A stretch of DNA of 64,000 nucleotides, taken from Mesotoga prima MesG1.Ag.4.2 (GTDB taxonomy: Bacteria > Thermotogota > Thermotogae > Petrotogales > Kosmotogaceae). The number at the start of each line of letters is the position of its first letter. Positions within the stretch are counted from its first letter, which is position 1. Position numbers and translations under genes: made by a program. This document shows positions 3,888 to 11,616 of this stretch, in pieces. The stretch lies in contig NC_017934.1 of NCBI RefSeq assembly GCF_000147715.2, positions 1,426,001 to 1,490,000 on the forward strand, given 5' to 3'. The notes under the pieces are model-generated. The model ran no database searches, had not been told where the DNA came from, and saw nothing but the letters and a program-made list of their open reading frames with translations.

Positions 3888-4769
3888 ATGAAGCTAAAGT
3901 CGAAGGCATATGTAAACCTATTACTCGTAGTAATATTCTGGGGATTGACCTTTCCGGTGCAGAAGAACATACTGGAGGGTCTATCCCCGGTATTCTATAA
4001 TGCGCTTCGTTTTTCGATCGCTCTCTTGATTCTGATTCCCCTGAGAAAGAAGCTCGGCCTCAAGATCACAAATAAGAGCCTTACTCAAGGTTTGATTTTA
4101 GGACTTTTCCTTTCGGGAGGATATGTTTTTCAGACGTGGGGACTTGTCTATACAACTGCATCCAAGAGCGCTTTTATTACGTCTCTTTACGTTGGTTTGG
4201 TCGCAATCATTGGTCCCGTTGTAGACAGGCGAATCCCCAGCCGCTATCAGATTCTTGCTCTGGGGGTATCATTAATCGGCTTGTATTTTCTTACAACACC
4301 CGAGACAGGATTCAACTTTGGTGACCTGCTAACCGCTCTTTGCGCAGTTTCTTTCGCCCTGCATGTCGTTTTGATCTCTTATTTCACCCAGAAGGAAGAT
4401 GTCGACGAAATGGAGCTTCTCGTTCCTCAATTTGTCGTAGTGCTTCTTGTCAATATGGCGCTGATTCCTTTCGTCAAAGGAAGTGTGTTTATAAACGGTT
4501 CAATACTCTTTGTTGCGCTGTTTTCTGCAGTTTTCGCAACTATCTTCGCGGTTGCAGTGCAGTTGAAATATCAGAGGTTTCTCGGTTCCGTAGGAGCCTC
4601 TCTGATCTACGTAGGTGAACCGGCCTTCGCACTGTTCTTTGCAATGATCATACTCAGAGAGATTCCGGGTAAAATGGAAGTGGTGGGTTTGCTTCTCATG
4701 ACTGCTGGAATGGTACTTGGAGGGATCTCGTCCTTCGTAATGCGAGATAGGAGTGTGAAGAAGGGTTGA
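3888..4769 (+). CDS. EamA/DMT-family membrane transporter
   Basis: Ten predicted membrane helices arranged as two EamA halves, with the typical opening LLLVVIFWGLTFPVQK and the second-half signature QRFLGSVGASLIYVGEPAFALFFAMIILRE. Length of 293 aa is standard for drug/metabolite transporters. Substrate cannot be told from sequence; members export amino acids, metabolites or drugs. It lies 31 bases after the PEGA gene and its stop overlaps the start of the response regulator, so it is probably co-transcribed with the two-component system. Confidence 0.88.
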   Translation: MKLKSKAYVNLLLVVIFWGLTFPVQKNILEGLSPVFYNALRFSIALLILIPLRKKLGLKITNKSLTQGLILGLFLSGGYVFQTWGLVYTTASKSAFITSLYVGLVAIIGPVVDRRIPSRYQILALGVSLIGLYFLTTPETGFNFGDLLTALCAVSFALHVVLISYFTQKEDVDEMELLVPQFVVVLLVNMALIPFVKGSVFINGSILFVALFSAVFATIFAVAVQLKYQRFLGSVGASLIYVGEPAFALFFAMIILREIPGKMEVVGLLLMTAGMVLGGISSFVMRDRSVKKG

Positions 4770-5428
4770 AAGGAAGGATAATGGTCGTAGAAGACGATAT
4801 GCATATTGGAAAATTGCTTCGCTTGGAGCTAGGCCATGAAGGATACGAAGTAGAAGTTTTGACCGATGGAAAGGAAGCGCTAAAGCATCTAGAAAAAGAG
4901 CTTCCAGATCTTCTTATCCTTGACGTGATGCTTCCCGGTTTGGATGGTTTCTCGGTGCTGGAAGAAATCAGAGAGTATATTTCCACCGATCTTCCCGTTA
5001 TAATGCTTACCGCTAAAGGTGAAGTTAAGGACAGAATACGAGGTTTGAAGAGCGGTGCAGATGATTACTTGCCGAAACCATTTGTAATTGAGGAACTTCT
5101 GGCCAGAATCGAAGCAGTACTTAGACGCAAAGGGAAAGTGGAAAGGATCAGCTACTTCGAAATCACCCTCGATATGCAATCTCGTGAAGCCTTTCTCAAT
5201 GGAGAACCTCTGCAATTGAGCAAGACCGAGTTTGATCTGCTGGCAGTTCTGCTATCGAACGCTGGAATTGTGATGTCAAAGGAAAGATTACTCGAAAAGG
5301 TTTGGGGAAGCGAGGACTGGGGCAACCCCAATGTTGTGGAAGTATATATTAACTACTTGCGTAAGAAACTGGGAAAGACGGGCGAAAGAATAAAAACGGT
5401 GAGGGGCTCTGGCTACGTTGTCAGATAG
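4766..5428 (+). CDS. OmpR/PhoB-family response regulator
   Basis: Receiver domain at residues about 4-118 with the acidic pair VVEDD, phosphoacceptor Asp in LLILDVMLPG, the conserved Thr in VIMLTAKGE and Lys in YLPKPF. A winged-helix DNA-binding domain follows at about 130-218 (LSKTEFDLLAVLLSNAG; VVEVYINYLRKKLG; RIKTVRGSGYVVR). The TTG at 4766, overlapping the transporter stop, keeps the first beta strand (KGRIMVVEDD); ATG at 4781 would cut it off. It pairs with the histidine kinase that overlaps its 3' end. The regulated genes are unknown; the linked operon is the obvious candidate. Confidence 0.93.
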   Translation: MKGRIMVVEDDMHIGKLLRLELGHEGYEVEVLTDGKEALKHLEKELPDLLILDVMLPGLDGFSVLEEIREYISTDLPVIMLTAKGEVKDRIRGLKSGADDYLPKPFVIEELLARIEAVLRRKGKVERISYFEITLDMQSREAFLNGEPLQLSKTEFDLLAVLLSNAGIVMSKERLLEKVWGSEDWGNPNVVEVYINYLRKKLGKTGERIKTVRGSGYVVR

Positions 5429-6695
5429 GAGGAAGCTCTCTACAGCGACTCAGGTAGCCATCTACTCGGTGGTTCTGATCGTATCCATTCTCTTTGCCTC
5501 GGCCATATTCGTTTATGGAGTCTCCGAAAGTGTCTTCATTCGCAATTACTCCGCAGAGATGAGAAAGATCTTCATGGATTCTCCCATGGGCAAAGGGTTT
5601 AGGTATGGCGTGGGAAGAATGGCCATAGGCAGAGGAACTACAGAGTTTTACGTGAGCGTTGATGGAAACGTGGTTCAGAATCCAACAGGACTGAGCAGCG
5701 TTCCGGATGTTGAGGGATATGTAAAGACGAGGATAGATGGCAGCTCCTATCTTCTCTACGGATTCTTGAATGGAGAGGAAAAAGTGATTCTCGGTGCAAG
5801 AATGGACGATCTCGATTTCTTCCTAGAGAGTCTCGCCACCACTCTCCTTCTTTCAGTCTTGGTTGGTGTTGTCCTTTCAATCATCGGTGGCCTCTTCCTT
5901 GGAAGCAGGGTCTCTAAACCTATCAAAGAAACTTCACGTCTGTTAAAGGAGATAACGCTGAATGATCTTTCAAGAAGACTGGAAAGCGATCCGAAGACTT
6001 CCGAACTTGCCGAACTCAAAAAAGCACTGAATAGAGCTCTAGACAGAATTCAAGATGGATACACCAGGCAGGAACAGTTTTCATCAGACATTGCGCATGA
6101 GATTCGCTCTCCACTGACTTCAATCCTTGGCTTCTCGAGACTGATTCTTCGCTGGGGTTCTGACGACCCAGAGGTTGTCAAGGAAGCCGCTGAAAGTATC
6201 TCCGACACAGCCACCAAGATGATGACAATTACTGAATCTCTGCTTTTTCTCTCGAGACCCGAGATCGAACTAAACGAAACAAGTTTCAACCTCAGAGAAC
6301 TGGTACTCGAGATCACCAATAGCGTTCCAGCCGATCAGTCGGCAGAGATGAAGATCGAGATTCCAGATATCGAAGTCCGAACCGATAGAGTTCTGCTTAA
6401 GATAATTGTAAAAATTCTTGTTGAAAATGCCTTGAAGTTTGGAAAGAATGGCCCGATAGAGATCAATTGGTCAGATGGTACATTAAGTGTTAGGGATCAT
6501 GGCATGGGAATCAACGAGGATGAAAAAGAACGAATATTCAACAGATTCTACAGGGGCGACTCTTCAAGAGGTGGTGAAGGTCATGGATTGGGTCTTTCCA
6601 TTGCCAGCAAGATCTGTAAGGTGTTGAAACTCTCAATCGATGCAGATAATTGTGAGGATGGAGGAGCAGTATTCAAAGTGGAGGGATTAAGATGA
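5418..6695 (+). CDS. Membrane sensor histidine kinase
   Basis: Two membrane helices (about residues 13-35 and 138-162) flank a roughly 100-residue extracytoplasmic sensor region. Then come a HAMP-like linker (LGSRVSKPIKETSRLL), a HisKA domain with phospho-acceptor His in SSDIAHEIRSPLTSILGFS, and an HATPase domain with N box (VENALKFG), G1 box (RDHGMGI), F box (RIFNRFYRGD) and G2 box (GHGLGLSIA). TTG start at 5418 overlaps the response regulator end by 11 bases. The sensor region matches nothing I recognise, so the signal is unknown. Its stop overlaps the start of the next gene. Confidence 0.93.
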   Translation: MSDRRKLSTATQVAIYSVVLIVSILFASAIFVYGVSESVFIRNYSAEMRKIFMDSPMGKGFRYGVGRMAIGRGTTEFYVSVDGNVVQNPTGLSSVPDVEGYVKTRIDGSSYLLYGFLNGEEKVILGARMDDLDFFLESLATTLLLSVLVGVVLSIIGGLFLGSRVSKPIKETSRLLKEITLNDLSRRLESDPKTSELAELKKALNRALDRIQDGYTRQEQFSSDIAHEIRSPLTSILGFSRLILRWGSDDPEVVKEAAESISDTATKMMTITESLLFLSRPEIELNETSFNLRELVLEITNSVPADQSAEMKIEIPDIEVRTDRVLLKIIVKILVENALKFGKNGPIEINWSDGTLSVRDHGMGINEDEKERIFNRFYRGDSSRGGEGHGLGLSIASKICKVLKLSIDADNCEDGGAVFKVEGLR

Positions 6696-8206
6696 GAATT
6701 GCGATATCGGTTGCGGAGCTGGCAGTAACCTGGATAATCATTCCCTTTCTCCTCTTTTCCGGAGCACCGTTTTCAGCGGGATTAGGAGTGACGATAGTCG
6801 CTTCGATTATCATCATTTTGTCTCTTCTTCTAGCGATCTATTCTGCTCTTGTGGTATATTACTGGTCCGGAAGACTGCCGACCGTTATATATGGGCCCGA
6901 AAAAACCGTTCAAAGCGGCCCATACAGATTTGTTCGCCATCCATTCAACCTGGGTTACATACTTTTCCTTTTCGGTCTTGGATTGTTGAGTGGAAACTAT
7001 TGGACGCTTCTTTACGTTGCAGTCATAGGCGCAGTGATAGTTGTGTATTCTTTGCTCCAAGAAAAACTCGCTCTGAAAAGAATTGAAGGCTACGAGGACT
7101 ATAAAGAGAAGATACCTTTCATGATCCCAAATCCCGGAAGAAAGATACCCTTTGATAAATCGACATCCATTCCCTGGCAATTCATCGTGGCATCATTCGT
7201 TGTGAAGCTGGTAATTCTGATTGTTCTACCCTCTAAGGTAAAGAATGCAAGAGTGCTCAGAGAAAAGAGGCCCTTCGTTCTCGCTCTTGCTCACCAAACT
7301 CATTTCGACGGTCCTCTTATCTTTTACTCGACGTCGCGTTACCTGAGGTTCGTAGGCACCGCAATCTACGTTGATAGACTCGGGTTGCTTAACTGGCTCG
7401 CCGTAATTCCTGTCAGAAGATATGCTGTCGATACATCCGCCATAAGACAGATGCTTTCGACAATAAAACAGGGAGTTCCACTGGGAATTGCACCTGAAGC
7501 AGCGAGATCATGGGACGGAAGACCACTACATACAAAAAGAGAGATATGGAAGCTTTTCAGGATGTTGAAAATCCCTGTAATCCCAGTGAAGTTTTATGGA
7601 GTACAGAGACTTTGGCCTAGATGGGCAAAGATTTTTGCATTGGGGACTTCGACCGTAGAATTCGGTGATCCGGTCGAAGCAGATGATCCCCAGCTAGAAG
7701 AAAAAGTGATGGGCTTCCTCGCCAAGGAGGATCCAACCTTCAAGCTTCCTTACCGAAACTACAAACGTATAGAAAAGCTGATCTGGCGCTGTCCAAGCTG
7801 TGGCGCCGTTGCCTCTATCAAAGGCTTCAAAACTGGCTTCTCATGTTCTTCGTGCGGAAAAAGCTGGACCAAGCCAACTGTAAACGAAGTAATTCAAATC
7901 CACGACAGGATAATGCCTGGAAGCATGGGCCTTTCCTTCCCCATAAAGGATGAGGTAATATTCAATGGAGAGAGGGTAACGGCAAACATATACGAGGACC
8001 ACGCGATGATCGGAGACTACAAGCTGGATTATAGCGTCATAAATAACTCCAGTATAGAAAAAAGTATAGAACCGGTCTTTGGGATTGCAAATGAAATGGT
8101 TAGTTTCGTCTCTACGACCAGCGCACTAATGTGGCAGGAACTGGTAGACTTCCAGATCAAATTCAGACTTAAGAAAGAAAACTATCACACCGATCTCTGG
8201 GGATAG
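6692..8206 (+). CDS. Three-part membrane protein: isoprenylcysteine/phospholipid methyltransferase-like + PlsC acyltransferase + zinc ribbon
   Basis: ATG overlaps the kinase stop (ATGA). Residues 1-150 contain several membrane helices and the ICMT/PEMT-like signature GPYRFVRHPFNLGY (76-89), with the family's typical tail EDYKEKIPFMIPNP. Residues about 185-350 form a glycerolipid acyltransferase with HQTHFD (201-206, the HX4D catalytic motif) and a PEAARS block (269-274) in place of EGTRS. A CxxC...CxxC ribbon follows (CPSC 367-370, CSSC 385-388), then about 115 residues I do not recognise. Likely role is membrane lipid modification at the cytoplasmic membrane, possibly controlled by the adjacent two-component system. 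The fusion as a whole is unfamiliar to me. Confidence 0.78.
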   Translation: MRIAISVAELAVTWIIIPFLLFSGAPFSAGLGVTIVASIIIILSLLLAIYSALVVYYWSGRLPTVIYGPEKTVQSGPYRFVRHPFNLGYILFLFGLGLLSGNYWTLLYVAVIGAVIVVYSLLQEKLALKRIEGYEDYKEKIPFMIPNPGRKIPFDKSTSIPWQFIVASFVVKLVILIVLPSKVKNARVLREKRPFVLALAHQTHFDGPLIFYSTSRYLRFVGTAIYVDRLGLLNWLAVIPVRRYAVDTSAIRQMLSTIKQGVPLGIAPEAARSWDGRPLHTKREIWKLFRMLKIPVIPVKFYGVQRLWPRWAKIFALGTSTVEFGDPVEADDPQLEEKVMGFLAKEDPTFKLPYRNYKRIEKLIWRCPSCGAVASIKGFKTGFSCSSCGKSWTKPTVNEVIQIHDRIMPGSMGLSFPIKDEVIFNGERVTANIYEDHAMIGDYKLDYSVINNSSIEKSIEPVFGIANEMVSFVSTTSALMWQELVDFQIKFRLKKENYHTDLWG

Positions 8207-8803
8207 CTCCCGGGATGTAACGCTGAATGCCGGGGATGCGGGTTCGTAAGAGCAAAAGGAACTGGTTGACCGTTGAGCGGTTCTCCGTTCTCCGAAGAAA
8301 ACCCGTTCTTCGTTCCGACGCTCCGCGTCCAGGTTCTTCGTTCTTGGGCAAGGTGATGATTCAAGAGCGTTTGGACTCCAACCAGTCATGAAAAAACAGC
8401 ACTCACCGGAAACTCTCTTCTGGTTCTCTAGCTTGCAACTGATCTCCACAGCTTAAAGCAGCTTCTAGATACGAGATCCCGATCAGTTTCATATCGGGAT
8501 GACCAAAGAGGAGAATAGAGATGATGTCTCTGCTTAACACCGATCAGCGGATCCTTGCTTTCTGTCGTTCAGCGGTTCTTAGATGCGAGATCGCGTGCAA
8601 AAGCATCACGGGATGACGGAAGTGGATAACGAACATAATCCATATTGGCGCAGACTCTACGGGATAAGAGTGCTTGGAAATAACCGGATGATACAACATG
8701 ATTTAAGGGCAGGAGACTCTCCCTTCTTGTCATCCTGACAATGCTCCTGTTCAGGATCCCTGTCTTTCGCGGAAAACGGGACAGACAATAGGAGCGTTTG
8801 GGA

Positions 8804-8864
8804 GCCAGTCTGCTAACGCACGCCAGTCGCACTTCGTGCGGCCAGTTCCGACTTAGTCGGGCAG
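8804..8864 (-). repeat. Mini-hairpin array, reverse orientation
   Basis: Three GCCAGT linkers (8804, 8822, 8841; spacing 18 and 19) separate small hairpins. CGCAC-TTC-GTGCG is at 8828-8840 and CCGAC-TTA-GTCGG at 8848-8860; a degenerate TGC/GCA stem lies between the first two linkers. Read on the minus strand the loops are GAA and TAA closed by C-G, and the linker is ACTGGC, so this is the same design as the array at 9244-9337 in opposite orientation. Confidence 0.7.
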
Positions 8865-9043
8865 AAGAGCCTTGTTTAGAAGCGGGTTACGAAGTGCGGG
8901 TTAGAAAGATCGGGTTTATAAAAGCGGGTTGTCAGAACCGGGTTCTTAAAGAGCGAGATCCCGTGCAGTTTCCCTGAACAGAATCTTTTCAGGGCAGGCG
9001 CTACGTGATGACAATTTAAGATGACTGTGCAGTTCTCTTGTAG

Positions 9044-9063
9044 GGGCGAACGGCCGTTCGCCC
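9044..9063. repeat. Perfect 20-bp palindrome
   Basis: GGGCGAACGG directly followed by its reverse complement CCGTTCGCCC. It sits in the non-coding repeat region, with no T-tract or gene beside it that would make it a terminator. It resembles short GC-rich palindromic elements scattered in many bacterial genomes; that likeness is from memory. Confidence 0.7.
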
Positions 9064-9243
9064 GAAAAAGGTCCTGGTTGGAATTTCTGCCTTTTACGCG
9101 AAAAATGGGACATGAGGAGAATTGTCAGTCCCTATTTTCGCTCTCATCTTCTCGTGAGCGAAGCGAACGTCTCCGACGTGCTCTTTCTCGGTTTTTACAG
9201 CGACCAGCGGGGTTTCGTTCTTAAGCGTTCAGCGGCTCCTAGC

Positions 9244-9337
9244 CCGCGAAGCGGAACTGGCCACCGAAGGTGACTGGCCTCTGCCGGAGGCAGAGACTGG
9301 CCAGGCGGAGCCTGACTGGCCTGCGCAGCAGACTGGC
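9244..9337 (+). repeat. Array of five GNA-triloop mini-hairpins joined by ACTGGCC
   Basis: Five consecutive hairpins: CCGC-GAA-GCGG (9244-9254), CACC-GAA-GGTG (9262-9272), CTCTGCC-GGA-GGCAGAG (9279-9295), CAGGC-GGA-GCCTG (9302-9314) and CTGC-GCA-GCAG (9321-9331). Every loop is GNA closed by C-G. ACTGGC or ACTGGCC follows each hairpin (starts 9256, 9273, 9296, 9315, 9332). Stem sequence and length differ in every unit but always pair, so structure is kept while sequence changes. A seven-T run follows at 9340. GNA loops closed by C-G are known to give unusually stable small DNA hairpins. Confidence 0.85.
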
Positions 9338-9707
9338 ATGTTTTTTTGCAGCCCTAAGACCGCCGACGTTTCATGGCGCATTTCGTCTTATGTTTTATAG
9401 TAGAATCACTTCTGTTCTTTGTCTCGGAGGACGGAGAACCGTTGACGGTGGACCTGATAAGGCCTCCTGCCGAAGGCAGCCTTGAGTCCACTGATGCTCC
9501 TCAGTGCATTGCGTCCCGGCCCGATCTTCGCCGGCATTGCGTCAAATGTTCTAAAAGGGCATCACTTCTGCTCTTGCCAGACCCTAGACTCCACAACCCT
9601 GGTCCCGGTTCTCCCTTCTCCCTTCGTTAATTAGACTGCCTACTTTCATTTACTTAGATGTGCTTTTTCTTTCTTAATGAGTCCACATGATTGTAGTAAG
9701 ATAGTAC

Positions 9708-9719
9708 TGTTTCGAAACA
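9708..9719. promoter_or_regulatory. 12-bp palindrome upstream of the nucleotidase
   Basis: TGTTTCGAAACA, about 107 bases before the nucleotidase start and inside the only plausible promoter region, could be a repressor site. No -35/-10 pair stands out beside it, so this is a weak call. Confidence 0.3.
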
Positions 9720-9825
9720 TTCTTTGGAATCCTCAATTATCTTCAGCATTGGATTCTTACGGTCATGGGTCAATAATTCTATCCGGCGAAAATTGGGCTG
9801 GTCAACTCAAATGGAGGTGGAGCTT

Positions 9826-11616
9826 TTGAACTGGAAGAAAGGAATTCCTGCAGTTGTTATCGTTCTATTTGTTGCTGCGTTAGTCCCTGTAGTGGCATTC
9901 GGAACGGTAACCGTTCACGAACTAGTCGTTCTGGGCACGACTGATCTTCACGGCTATGTAATGCCCTATGATTATCTTACTGTCAAAGAAGTCAGTGATT
10001 ACGGGGCTGCAAAGACCTTCACACTGATAAAGTGGGCAAGGGAAATGTACAACAACACCATCTTGATCGACACGGGAGATGCCATTCAGGGTAGCGTTCT
10101 CGCAGAGCGTGAAGCGAGAATAGATCCAATCAAGATGGGAGATACTCCCTCGATAATCAAAGCCATGAATATCATGGATTATGACGTAGTTGGAATTGGA
10201 AATCACGAATTCAATTTCGGTCTCGAATATCTGGACCTGGCCATTGCTTCCGCTGACTTCCCGATGATCTCGGCAAATCTTTACAACGAAGACACGAAAG
10301 AGCTCAGATATGACCCCTATGTGATATTGGAAAGAGAAGTCGACGGAATTCCAATCAAGATTGGCGTTATAGCCTTTTTACCTCCGGAAATAATGATGTG
10401 GGACAGAGTCCTCCTCGAAGGAAAAGTCTATGCTGAACCTATAGTAGACGCGGCTGCCAAGTATGTGCCCAAACTACGCGAAGAGGGCGTCGATCTGGTG
10501 ATAGTCTCCCTTCACCAGGGAAGCTCAGACGCTGAAGCAATACTCGAAAACGTTGAAGGAATAGACGCCATCATCATGGGTCACAGCCACGGGAAAATTG
10601 CCGACAAAATAGATGGAGTCCCGGTGACAATGGCAGGAAGCTGGGGAAACTCCTTAGGTTTGATACATTTCCATCTTCTGAACATTGATGGAGAGTGGGA
10701 GGTATTTTCTTCATGCCCGCAGTTGTGGCACGTCGACGAAAAAGTCGAGGCTGCTCCGGAGATAGTTGAAGCAGTTAAAGAACAGCACGAAGCCACTATT
10801 GATTACGTAATGGCTCCCGTGGGAACGACAGCTGTACCGATCAAGGGCTATTTCAGCAGGGTAATTGATAATGAAGTCACTCAGCTCGTCAACGAAGCCC
10901 AGCTTTGGTACGTTAAAGAGTATTTCAAGGGCACTGAATATGAGTCTATGCCTCTCCTTTCAGCTGCAGCTCCGTTTAGAACAAATACCAGTGTAGACGC
11001 AGGGGACGTAAGAATTATGAACGCTGCAGATATCTATATATACTCGAACACACTCCATGTTGTGAAGGTGAATGGTCTCGAATTGAAAGGCTGGCTTGAA
11101 AAGAGCGCGGAGAATTTCAATCAGATCGATCCTAACAGCACGGAAGAACAGAATTTGCTCGCAAGGTTCTCTTCATACAACTTCGACGTAATCGAAGGAA
11201 TAGACTATCAGATAGATGTTCGAAACCCCGTAGGTCAGAGAATTGTAAATCTCACTTATGAGGGTGAAGAAGTCGAAGACGACATGGAGTTTCTCGTCGT
11301 GACAAACAACTACCGCGCAGGTGGCGGCGGCTATCATCTGGTCGATGCCGACATCGTCCTCTCCTCAACAGTCGAGAATCGAAGCGTAATCATCGACTAT
11401 ATTATCGAGAAGGGCACTATCAATCCAACACCATCCTTCAACTGGTCAATAGTTCCATTCGAGTCTGCCGGAAAGATCACTTTCTCCTCAAGTGATGAAG
11501 CGGCAACTCTACCGGAAGAACTTGGAATAAAGGGTATAAAGTACATCGGAGACCGACTCTTTGAAGTAGACCTCATAGAGCTTGCAGAGAACGTCCCTCA
11601 GGCGGTTGCCAATTAG
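9826..11616 (+). CDS. Exported 2',3'-cyclic-nucleotide 2'-phosphodiesterase / 5'-nucleotidase family protein
   Basis: TTG at 9826 sits 6 bases after GGAGGTG and gives a clean signal peptide (NWKKGIPAVVIVLFVAALVPVVAFG). The metallophosphatase domain has TTDLHGYV, DTGDAIQGS, GNHEFNFG and GHSHG, the metal and catalytic motifs of the UshA/CpdB family. The C-terminal nucleotidase domain includes NNYRAGGGGYHL. CpdB-like spacing favours release of phosphate from cyclic or 3'-nucleotides outside the cytoplasm for phosphate and nucleoside scavenging. Length is 596 aa, and it is followed by a strong terminator. ATG at 9811 would overlap the SD and is less likely. Confidence 0.88.
   Translation: MNWKKGIPAVVIVLFVAALVPVVAFGTVTVHELVVLGTTDLHGYVMPYDYLTVKEVSDYGAAKTFTLIKWAREMYNNTILIDTGDAIQGSVLAEREARIDPIKMGDTPSIIKAMNIMDYDVVGIGNHEFNFGLEYLDLAIASADFPMISANLYNEDTKELRYDPYVILEREVDGIPIKIGVIAFLPPEIMMWDRVLLEGKVYAEPIVDAAAKYVPKLREEGVDLVIVSLHQGSSDAEAILENVEGIDAIIMGHSHGKIADKIDGVPVTMAGSWGNSLGLIHFHLLNIDGEWEVFSSCPQLWHVDEKVEAAPEIVEAVKEQHEATIDYVMAPVGTTAVPIKGYFSRVIDNEVTQLVNEAQLWYVKEYFKGTEYESMPLLSAAAPFRTNTSVDAGDVRIMNAADIYIYSNTLHVVKVNGLELKGWLEKSAENFNQIDPNSTEEQNLLARFSSYNFDVIEGIDYQIDVRNPVGQRIVNLTYEGEEVEDDMEFLVVTNNYRAGGGGYHLVDADIVLSSTVENRSVIIDYIIEKGTINPTPSFNWSIVPFESAGKITFSSSDEAATLPEELGIKGIKYIGDRLFEVDLIELAENVPQAVAN

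Follow-up and report, generated by a model that had tools for sequence, protein, structure and literature searches.

A single gene of Mesotoga prima MesG1.Ag.4.2, at positions 6692..8206 of the 64,000 nt stretch of DNA analysed here (the window), encodes a 504 aa protein that joins a phospholipid methyltransferase-like membrane module to a PlsC-type acyltransferase, a zinc ribbon and a conserved C-terminal domain. The pattern of sequence conservation suggests to us, with a probability of about one half, that the protein is an accessory lysophospholipid acyltransferase in which an ancestral lipid-methylating module has decayed, in Mesotoga, to a membrane anchor or to an altered activity.

The genes for several steps of membrane-lipid biosynthesis are unassigned in the Thermotogota, and a published account lists no known enzyme for the coupling step that yields the diabolic-acid lipids of T. 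maritima (PMC8788747). The fusion, conserved and combining two modules that modify lipids, represents a concrete enzyme candidate; it is a good enzyme lead, although it is built of known parts. In the literature that we searched, we found no relevant PEMT–PlsC fusion, Thermotogae lipid methyltransferase or ribbon-bearing PlsC.

Architecture and distribution of the fusion

The host genome comprises 2,975,953 bases in two contigs, and the window corresponds to G000:C1:1426001-1490000; the relatives closest to it in the comparison were MAGs of Mesotoga and other Kosmotogaceae. Within the window, the fusion gene and the genes immediately upstream have the following features:

3888..4769, + strand: EamA-family transporter, an upstream gene of the same overlapping string (profile match)
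4766..5428, + strand: OmpR-type response regulator (profile match)
5418..6695, + strand: sensor histidine kinase (two transmembrane helices, HAMP, HisKA, HATPase); its stop overlaps the fusion start
6692..8206, + strand: fusion gene (methyltransferase-like module, PlsC-type acyltransferase, zinc ribbon, C-terminal domain); 504 aa, ATG start
6692..7141, + strand: PEMT/ICMT-type membrane module, residues 1-150; Pfam PEMT match at residues 36-131 (6797-7084)
6917..6949, + strand: GPYRFVRHPFN, residues 76-86; canonical RHPxY changed to RHPFN, and the later EE to QE (residues 123-124)
7160..7249, + strand: hydrophobic helix, residues 157-186, between the methyltransferase-like module and the acyltransferase (hydropathy)
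7235..7726, + strand: PlsC-type acyltransferase, residues 182-345 (Pfam and 5kym matches, invariant residues)
7292-7309, + strand: HX4D acyltransferase motif (HQTHFD), residues 201-206
from 7493, + strand: PEAARSWDG, including the acyltransferase block PEAARS (residues 268-273)
7790..7855, + strand: C4 zinc ribbon, C367/C370/C385/C388 (RpoM and eS27 ribbon matches, weak)
7877..8203, + strand: C-terminal domain, residues 396-504, conserved in all full-length fusions

The initial annotation had placed the GPYRFVRHPFN, HQTHFD and CxxC...CxxC motifs in one protein whose gene overlaps the kinase stop, and this description was borne out: the motifs lie at residues 76-86, 201-206 and C367/C370 with C385/C388, and the start codon overlaps the stop codon of the kinase gene in the sequence ATGA, which GGAGGG precedes by a few bases. 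The starts of the regulator and kinase genes likewise overlap their preceding genes. Hydropathy analysis placed long hydrophobic stretches at residues 1-60 and 89-129, ahead of the helix at 157-186. The architecture described for the protein is confirmed as both real and conserved. Downstream of the fusion, positions 8207-9720 form 1.5 kb without a convincing gene. This region is made up of dispersed intergenic repeats: counting its own location, its pieces match the genome 141 times, with many of the matches clustered at C1:1.10-1.29 Mb.

A protein search detected full-length fusions in 29 of 103 Thermotogota genomes, and fragments in two more. The carriers include all ten Mesotoga genomes, the Kosmotogaceae genera g4 and g5, nine genomes of f7, six of f10 (one cut by a contig end) and G018, and the family alignment used below consists of 29 fusion proteins. 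Among 287 genomes of other phyla the fusion was found only in G108; the sister genome G390 carries it also, and G256, of the same family, has the acyltransferase-ribbon part alone. In a tree of the acyltransferase domain, f17 stands apart from the Thermotogota fusions, which are themselves separated from the unfused paralogues, while a tree of the methyltransferase domain places all fused modules in one group, although a weakly supported one (81/69). One old fusion followed by losses and two separate fusions are both possible readings of these sequences. One Kosmotogaceae genome carries the fusion twice in tandem, as strongly diverged copies on G018:C45 (L055, 7277-10369), away from the two-component genes.

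Acyltransferase constraint and methyltransferase motif loss

The acyltransferase half, like the ribbon, proved to be real, as the initial annotation had proposed. The Pfam Acyltransferase family (PF01553) matches residues 182-300 at 38.9 bits (cut-off 23, 9e-10), and it matches all 29 aligned homologues. The solved structure 5kym, which we take to be Thermotoga maritima PlsC (1-acylglycerol-3-phosphate acyltransferase), was matched at 8.6e-8 with the fusion protein and at 5e-19 with the fusion-family profile. Residues H201, D206, E269, R272, W274 and D275 are invariant in the 29 homologues, as are the four ribbon cysteines; other invariant residues include G76, P84 and W481. The replacement of an EGTRS block by PEAARS, to which attention had been drawn earlier, can be seen, but the proper alignment sets (P)EGTRS against (P)EAARS and retains both E269 and R272; the variants among homologues are EAARS, EAERS, EGERN, ENERS, ESERN and EGTRI. 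Judged by sequence, the catalytic residues of the acyltransferase are unremarkable.

Elsewhere in the genome we identified a canonical PlsC (113.7 bits) and a paralogue consisting of acyltransferase and ribbon (AT-ribbon), so the fused acyltransferase would be an accessory, third enzyme. Against the LPAAT reading, the fusion scores 27.1 bits with the NCBIfam model for 1-acylglycerol-3-phosphate acyltransferase (TIGR00530), far under the cut-off of 102.95, and the acceptor lipid is accordingly termed putative here. The AT-ribbon paralogue of L075 (G019:C1, 6643-7800) is split, with a reported in-frame TAG, and is a possible pseudogene or sequencing error.

Residues 1-150 had been read as an ICMT/PEMT-type module, with generic membrane helices as the alternative. 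Profile searches matched PEMT, which removes that alternative: Pfam PEMT (PF04191) reaches 33.5 bits over residues 36-131 (cut-off 25, 6.3e-8), with matches at E<=0.01 in 29/29 aligned homologues. Neither this match nor the one to the Acyltransferase family is explicable by chance. ICMT (PF04140) matches 27/29 homologues and scores 23.3 bits on the fusion, less than 1 bit under its 24-bit cut-off; the NCBIfam ICMT model NF040696 gives 22.4 bits, far under its cut-off of 160. The fusion-family profile finds the solved ICMTs 4a2n (5e-9) and 5vg9 (2e-7), and also 5v7p and AtTam46, the ICMT structures and AtTam46 spanning 5e-9 to 3e-7. In profile alignments, the solved relatives 4a2n, 5vg9 and 8xku all contain RHPxY and the later EE.

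The RHPxY...EE motif is kept in all six f10 fusions, in the two copies of G018 and in those of g4, the genus of Kosmotoga pacifica. It is mostly intact in the f7 fusions, which carry RHPxY or KHPxY with EE, ED or EN. In every Mesotoga fusion the motif is broken, and by two routes: six of the nine Mesotoga fusions examined, the window protein among them, have RHPF[N/S] with QE, and the other three have RQPxY with xE. The G033 fusion has RHPVT with IE. The RHP itself and the second E are still present in the window protein. As a control, we read the free-standing PEMT-type gene of Mesotoga genomes, which has RHPAY...EE in 7/7 copies. When the window genome is compared with the distant species G025/G026, this gene shows 73-75% identity, against only 36% in the fused methyltransferase module; the fused acyltransferase reaches 74%.

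In close Mesotoga pairs, the methyltransferase module has a dN/dS of about 0.15-0.4, and the values of the acyltransferase mostly lie at 0.02-0.08; the pair L037/L064 departs from this pattern, being very close and having too few synonymous changes. The values for the methyltransferase module are well below 1, so it is still under purifying selection. Taken as a whole, residues 1-150 show the lowest conservation of any part in each fusion clade, and some of the Mesotoga divergence is therefore general. The sequences thus point to a fused Mesotoga module that is still constrained, but unlike the standard enzyme of its family. Active methylation in this organism, as envisaged in the initial annotation, is doubtful because no Mesotoga fusion has an intact motif, and a PEMT family match in Mesotoga annotations should not be taken as phospholipid methylation. 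The natural variation amounts to a built-in experiment, with an intact motif in f10, most of f7 and K. pacifica, and a broken one in Mesotoga.

These observations are consistent with a model in which the N-terminal PEMT/ICMT-type multi-helix module and the one further helix would hold the acyltransferase at the membrane. There, His201 and Asp206 of the HX4D motif would activate the free hydroxyl on an acceptor resembling a lysophospholipid, to which an acyl group would pass from acyl-ACP or acyl-CoA, while the acceptor's phosphate would be held with the help of Arg243 and Glu269/Arg272; these motif roles are those generally known for PlsC. In the ancestral fusion, the methyltransferase module probably methylated the same lipid, or precursor class, using S-adenosylmethionine, and the fusion would couple both steps. 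In Mesotoga, the module would most likely anchor the protein in the membrane, act as a platform that presents lipids, or have a changed activity, since RHPxY...EE is broken in every Mesotoga species and the acyltransferase is strongly constrained. Decay of the module is opposed by the constraint that remains (dN/dS well below 1 and a PEMT score over the cut-off) and by the retained RHP and second E, which make the inactivation putative; in addition, membrane modules generally evolve faster.

The same signs of constraint would fit a Mesotoga fusion that is fully bifunctional, methylating and acylating one lipid to give an uncharacterized Thermotogota membrane lipid, with the changed residues tuning methyl transfer instead of abolishing it. 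The modules stay together across the phylum; the methyltransferase tree, albeit weakly, unites the fused modules, and the acyltransferase tree sets the Thermotogota fusions apart from the unfused paralogues. However, in every Mesotoga and in G033 the motif is broken, and in more than one way, whilst the Mesotoga genomes keep it intact in their free-standing PEMT-type gene, and we regard this reading as rather doubtful. We advance only tentatively the wider proposal of a Thermotogota-centred bifunctional enzyme, a single chain that would methylate (through its PEMT/ICMT-type integral membrane module) and acylate the same lipid to give an undescribed methylated membrane lipid, the methylating half having been retuned or silenced in Mesotoga.

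Gene neighbourhood, C-terminal region and substrate

The order EamA transporter, regulator, kinase, fusion is kept in the Kosmotogaceae genera g1 (Mesotoga), g4 and g5, where the gene string stands downstream of genes that resemble an rseP-type protease gene and ispG. The fusions of f7 and f10 have other neighbours and no adjoining two-component pair; in one f7 genus (L045/L049/L051/L052), the genes that follow the fusion in the same direction resemble two for BMP-type lipoproteins and those of a nucleoside-type ABC transporter. Neither regulator nor kinase lies beside the fusion in G018. Conversely, G019, a Kosmotoga (L085, G019:C1:958000-974000, 9557-11573), has orthologues of both the regulator (about 69% identity) and the kinase (about 43%) in the same position without a fusion, the same gene string stopping at the kinase.

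The pair without the fusion in G019, and the fusions without the pair in G018, f7 and f10, make the two-component link local and separable. The earlier view of the gene as lying under a two-component system therefore stands in so far as regulator, kinase and fusion form one overlapping gene string, but the pair adjoins the fusion in Kosmotogaceae only. It should be noted that co-transcription is not equal to regulation. The ATGA overlap and the gene order kept in Mesotoga, g4 and g5 could suggest a dedicated envelope-stress module, whose kinase and regulator, encoded next to the fusion, would serve to switch the enzyme on; given the separability seen in G019, G018, f7 and f10, we consider this unlikely.

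Pfam ribbon matches at residues 361-397 are weak. The last ~115 residues, initially described as unrecognized, match no named family, yet they include a domain (396-504) that is conserved across fusion clades, with hhalign probabilities of 96-99% between them. A link between this domain and the tail of the AT-ribbon paralogue was rejected, hhalign giving a probability of only 21%. AlphaFold2 prediction with four sequences was of low confidence (pLDDT 41 for the whole protein, 46 for residues 361-504). The C-terminal domain possibly has a PH-like fold, which we do not claim, as the hints are weak: one FERM_C and one Vps36 match among paralogues, at E about 0.02, and a strand pattern in the low-confidence model.

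The ribbon and C-terminal domain are well conserved in Mesotoga, where the methyltransferase motif is lost, as might be expected of a non-enzymatic or regulatory protein in which these parts bind a partner or lipid and the catalytic domains are relics. We find this very improbable in view of the HX4D, E269, R272, W274 and D275 residues, invariant in 29 homologues, and of the low acyltransferase dN/dS.

With regard to the methyl acceptor, PS decarboxylase, the usual source of PE, was not found in the window genome, nor in 99/103 Thermotogota (nearly all fusion carriers included), in a search in which control genomes gave matches. PE therefore appears unlikely as a substrate. A strict phospholipid N-methyltransferase converting PE to PC, coupled to acyl remodelling, would agree with PEMT as the best Pfam family of the module, but given the missing PS decarboxylase and the many substrates covered by Pfam PEMT, we give it hardly any weight. 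For the homologues with an intact motif, a natural guess is that the methyl acceptor is a lipid, or the precursor of one, on which the acyltransferase also acts.

Comparison with known enzymes

The putative accessory acyltransferase with its putatively decayed methyltransferase module can be compared with known enzymes part by part. With the ICMTs (4a2n, 5vg9) and the Pfam PEMT family, the fusion shares the helix pattern, the G-x-Y...RHP motif and the C-terminal E...Y...Y...P stretch. The Mesotoga fusion differs from them in that RHPFN replaces RHPxY and QE replaces EE, and it falls under the NCBIfam ICMT cut-off.

The HX4D, PE-x-x-R and xPVxPV regions of PlsC 5kym align with positions 175-341 of the fusion-family profile, whereas this PlsC is without methyltransferase module, ribbon or C-terminal domain. 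Closer in architecture are the AT-ribbon paralogues of the Thermotogota (~365 aa; the host's own copy is G000:C1:2891475-2892341), which share the acyltransferase, the PRW motif and the C4 ribbon followed by a C-terminal domain. Unlike the fusions, they have no methyltransferase module and carry PEGSVTWDG where the fusion has PEAARSWDG, and they form a separate branch of the acyltransferase tree (97/99).

Extra acyltransferases beside a principal PlsC, which provide condition-specific lipids, are likewise described for Shewanella livingstonensis (PlsC4 and PlsC5; PMC9541089) and Escherichia coli (YihG; PMC7277886). Their abstracts mention no fused methyltransferase module, and the parallel drawn here concerns their role as additional enzymes. 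Secondary LPAATs that favour particular chains and contribute to cold tolerance are known (PMC9541089).
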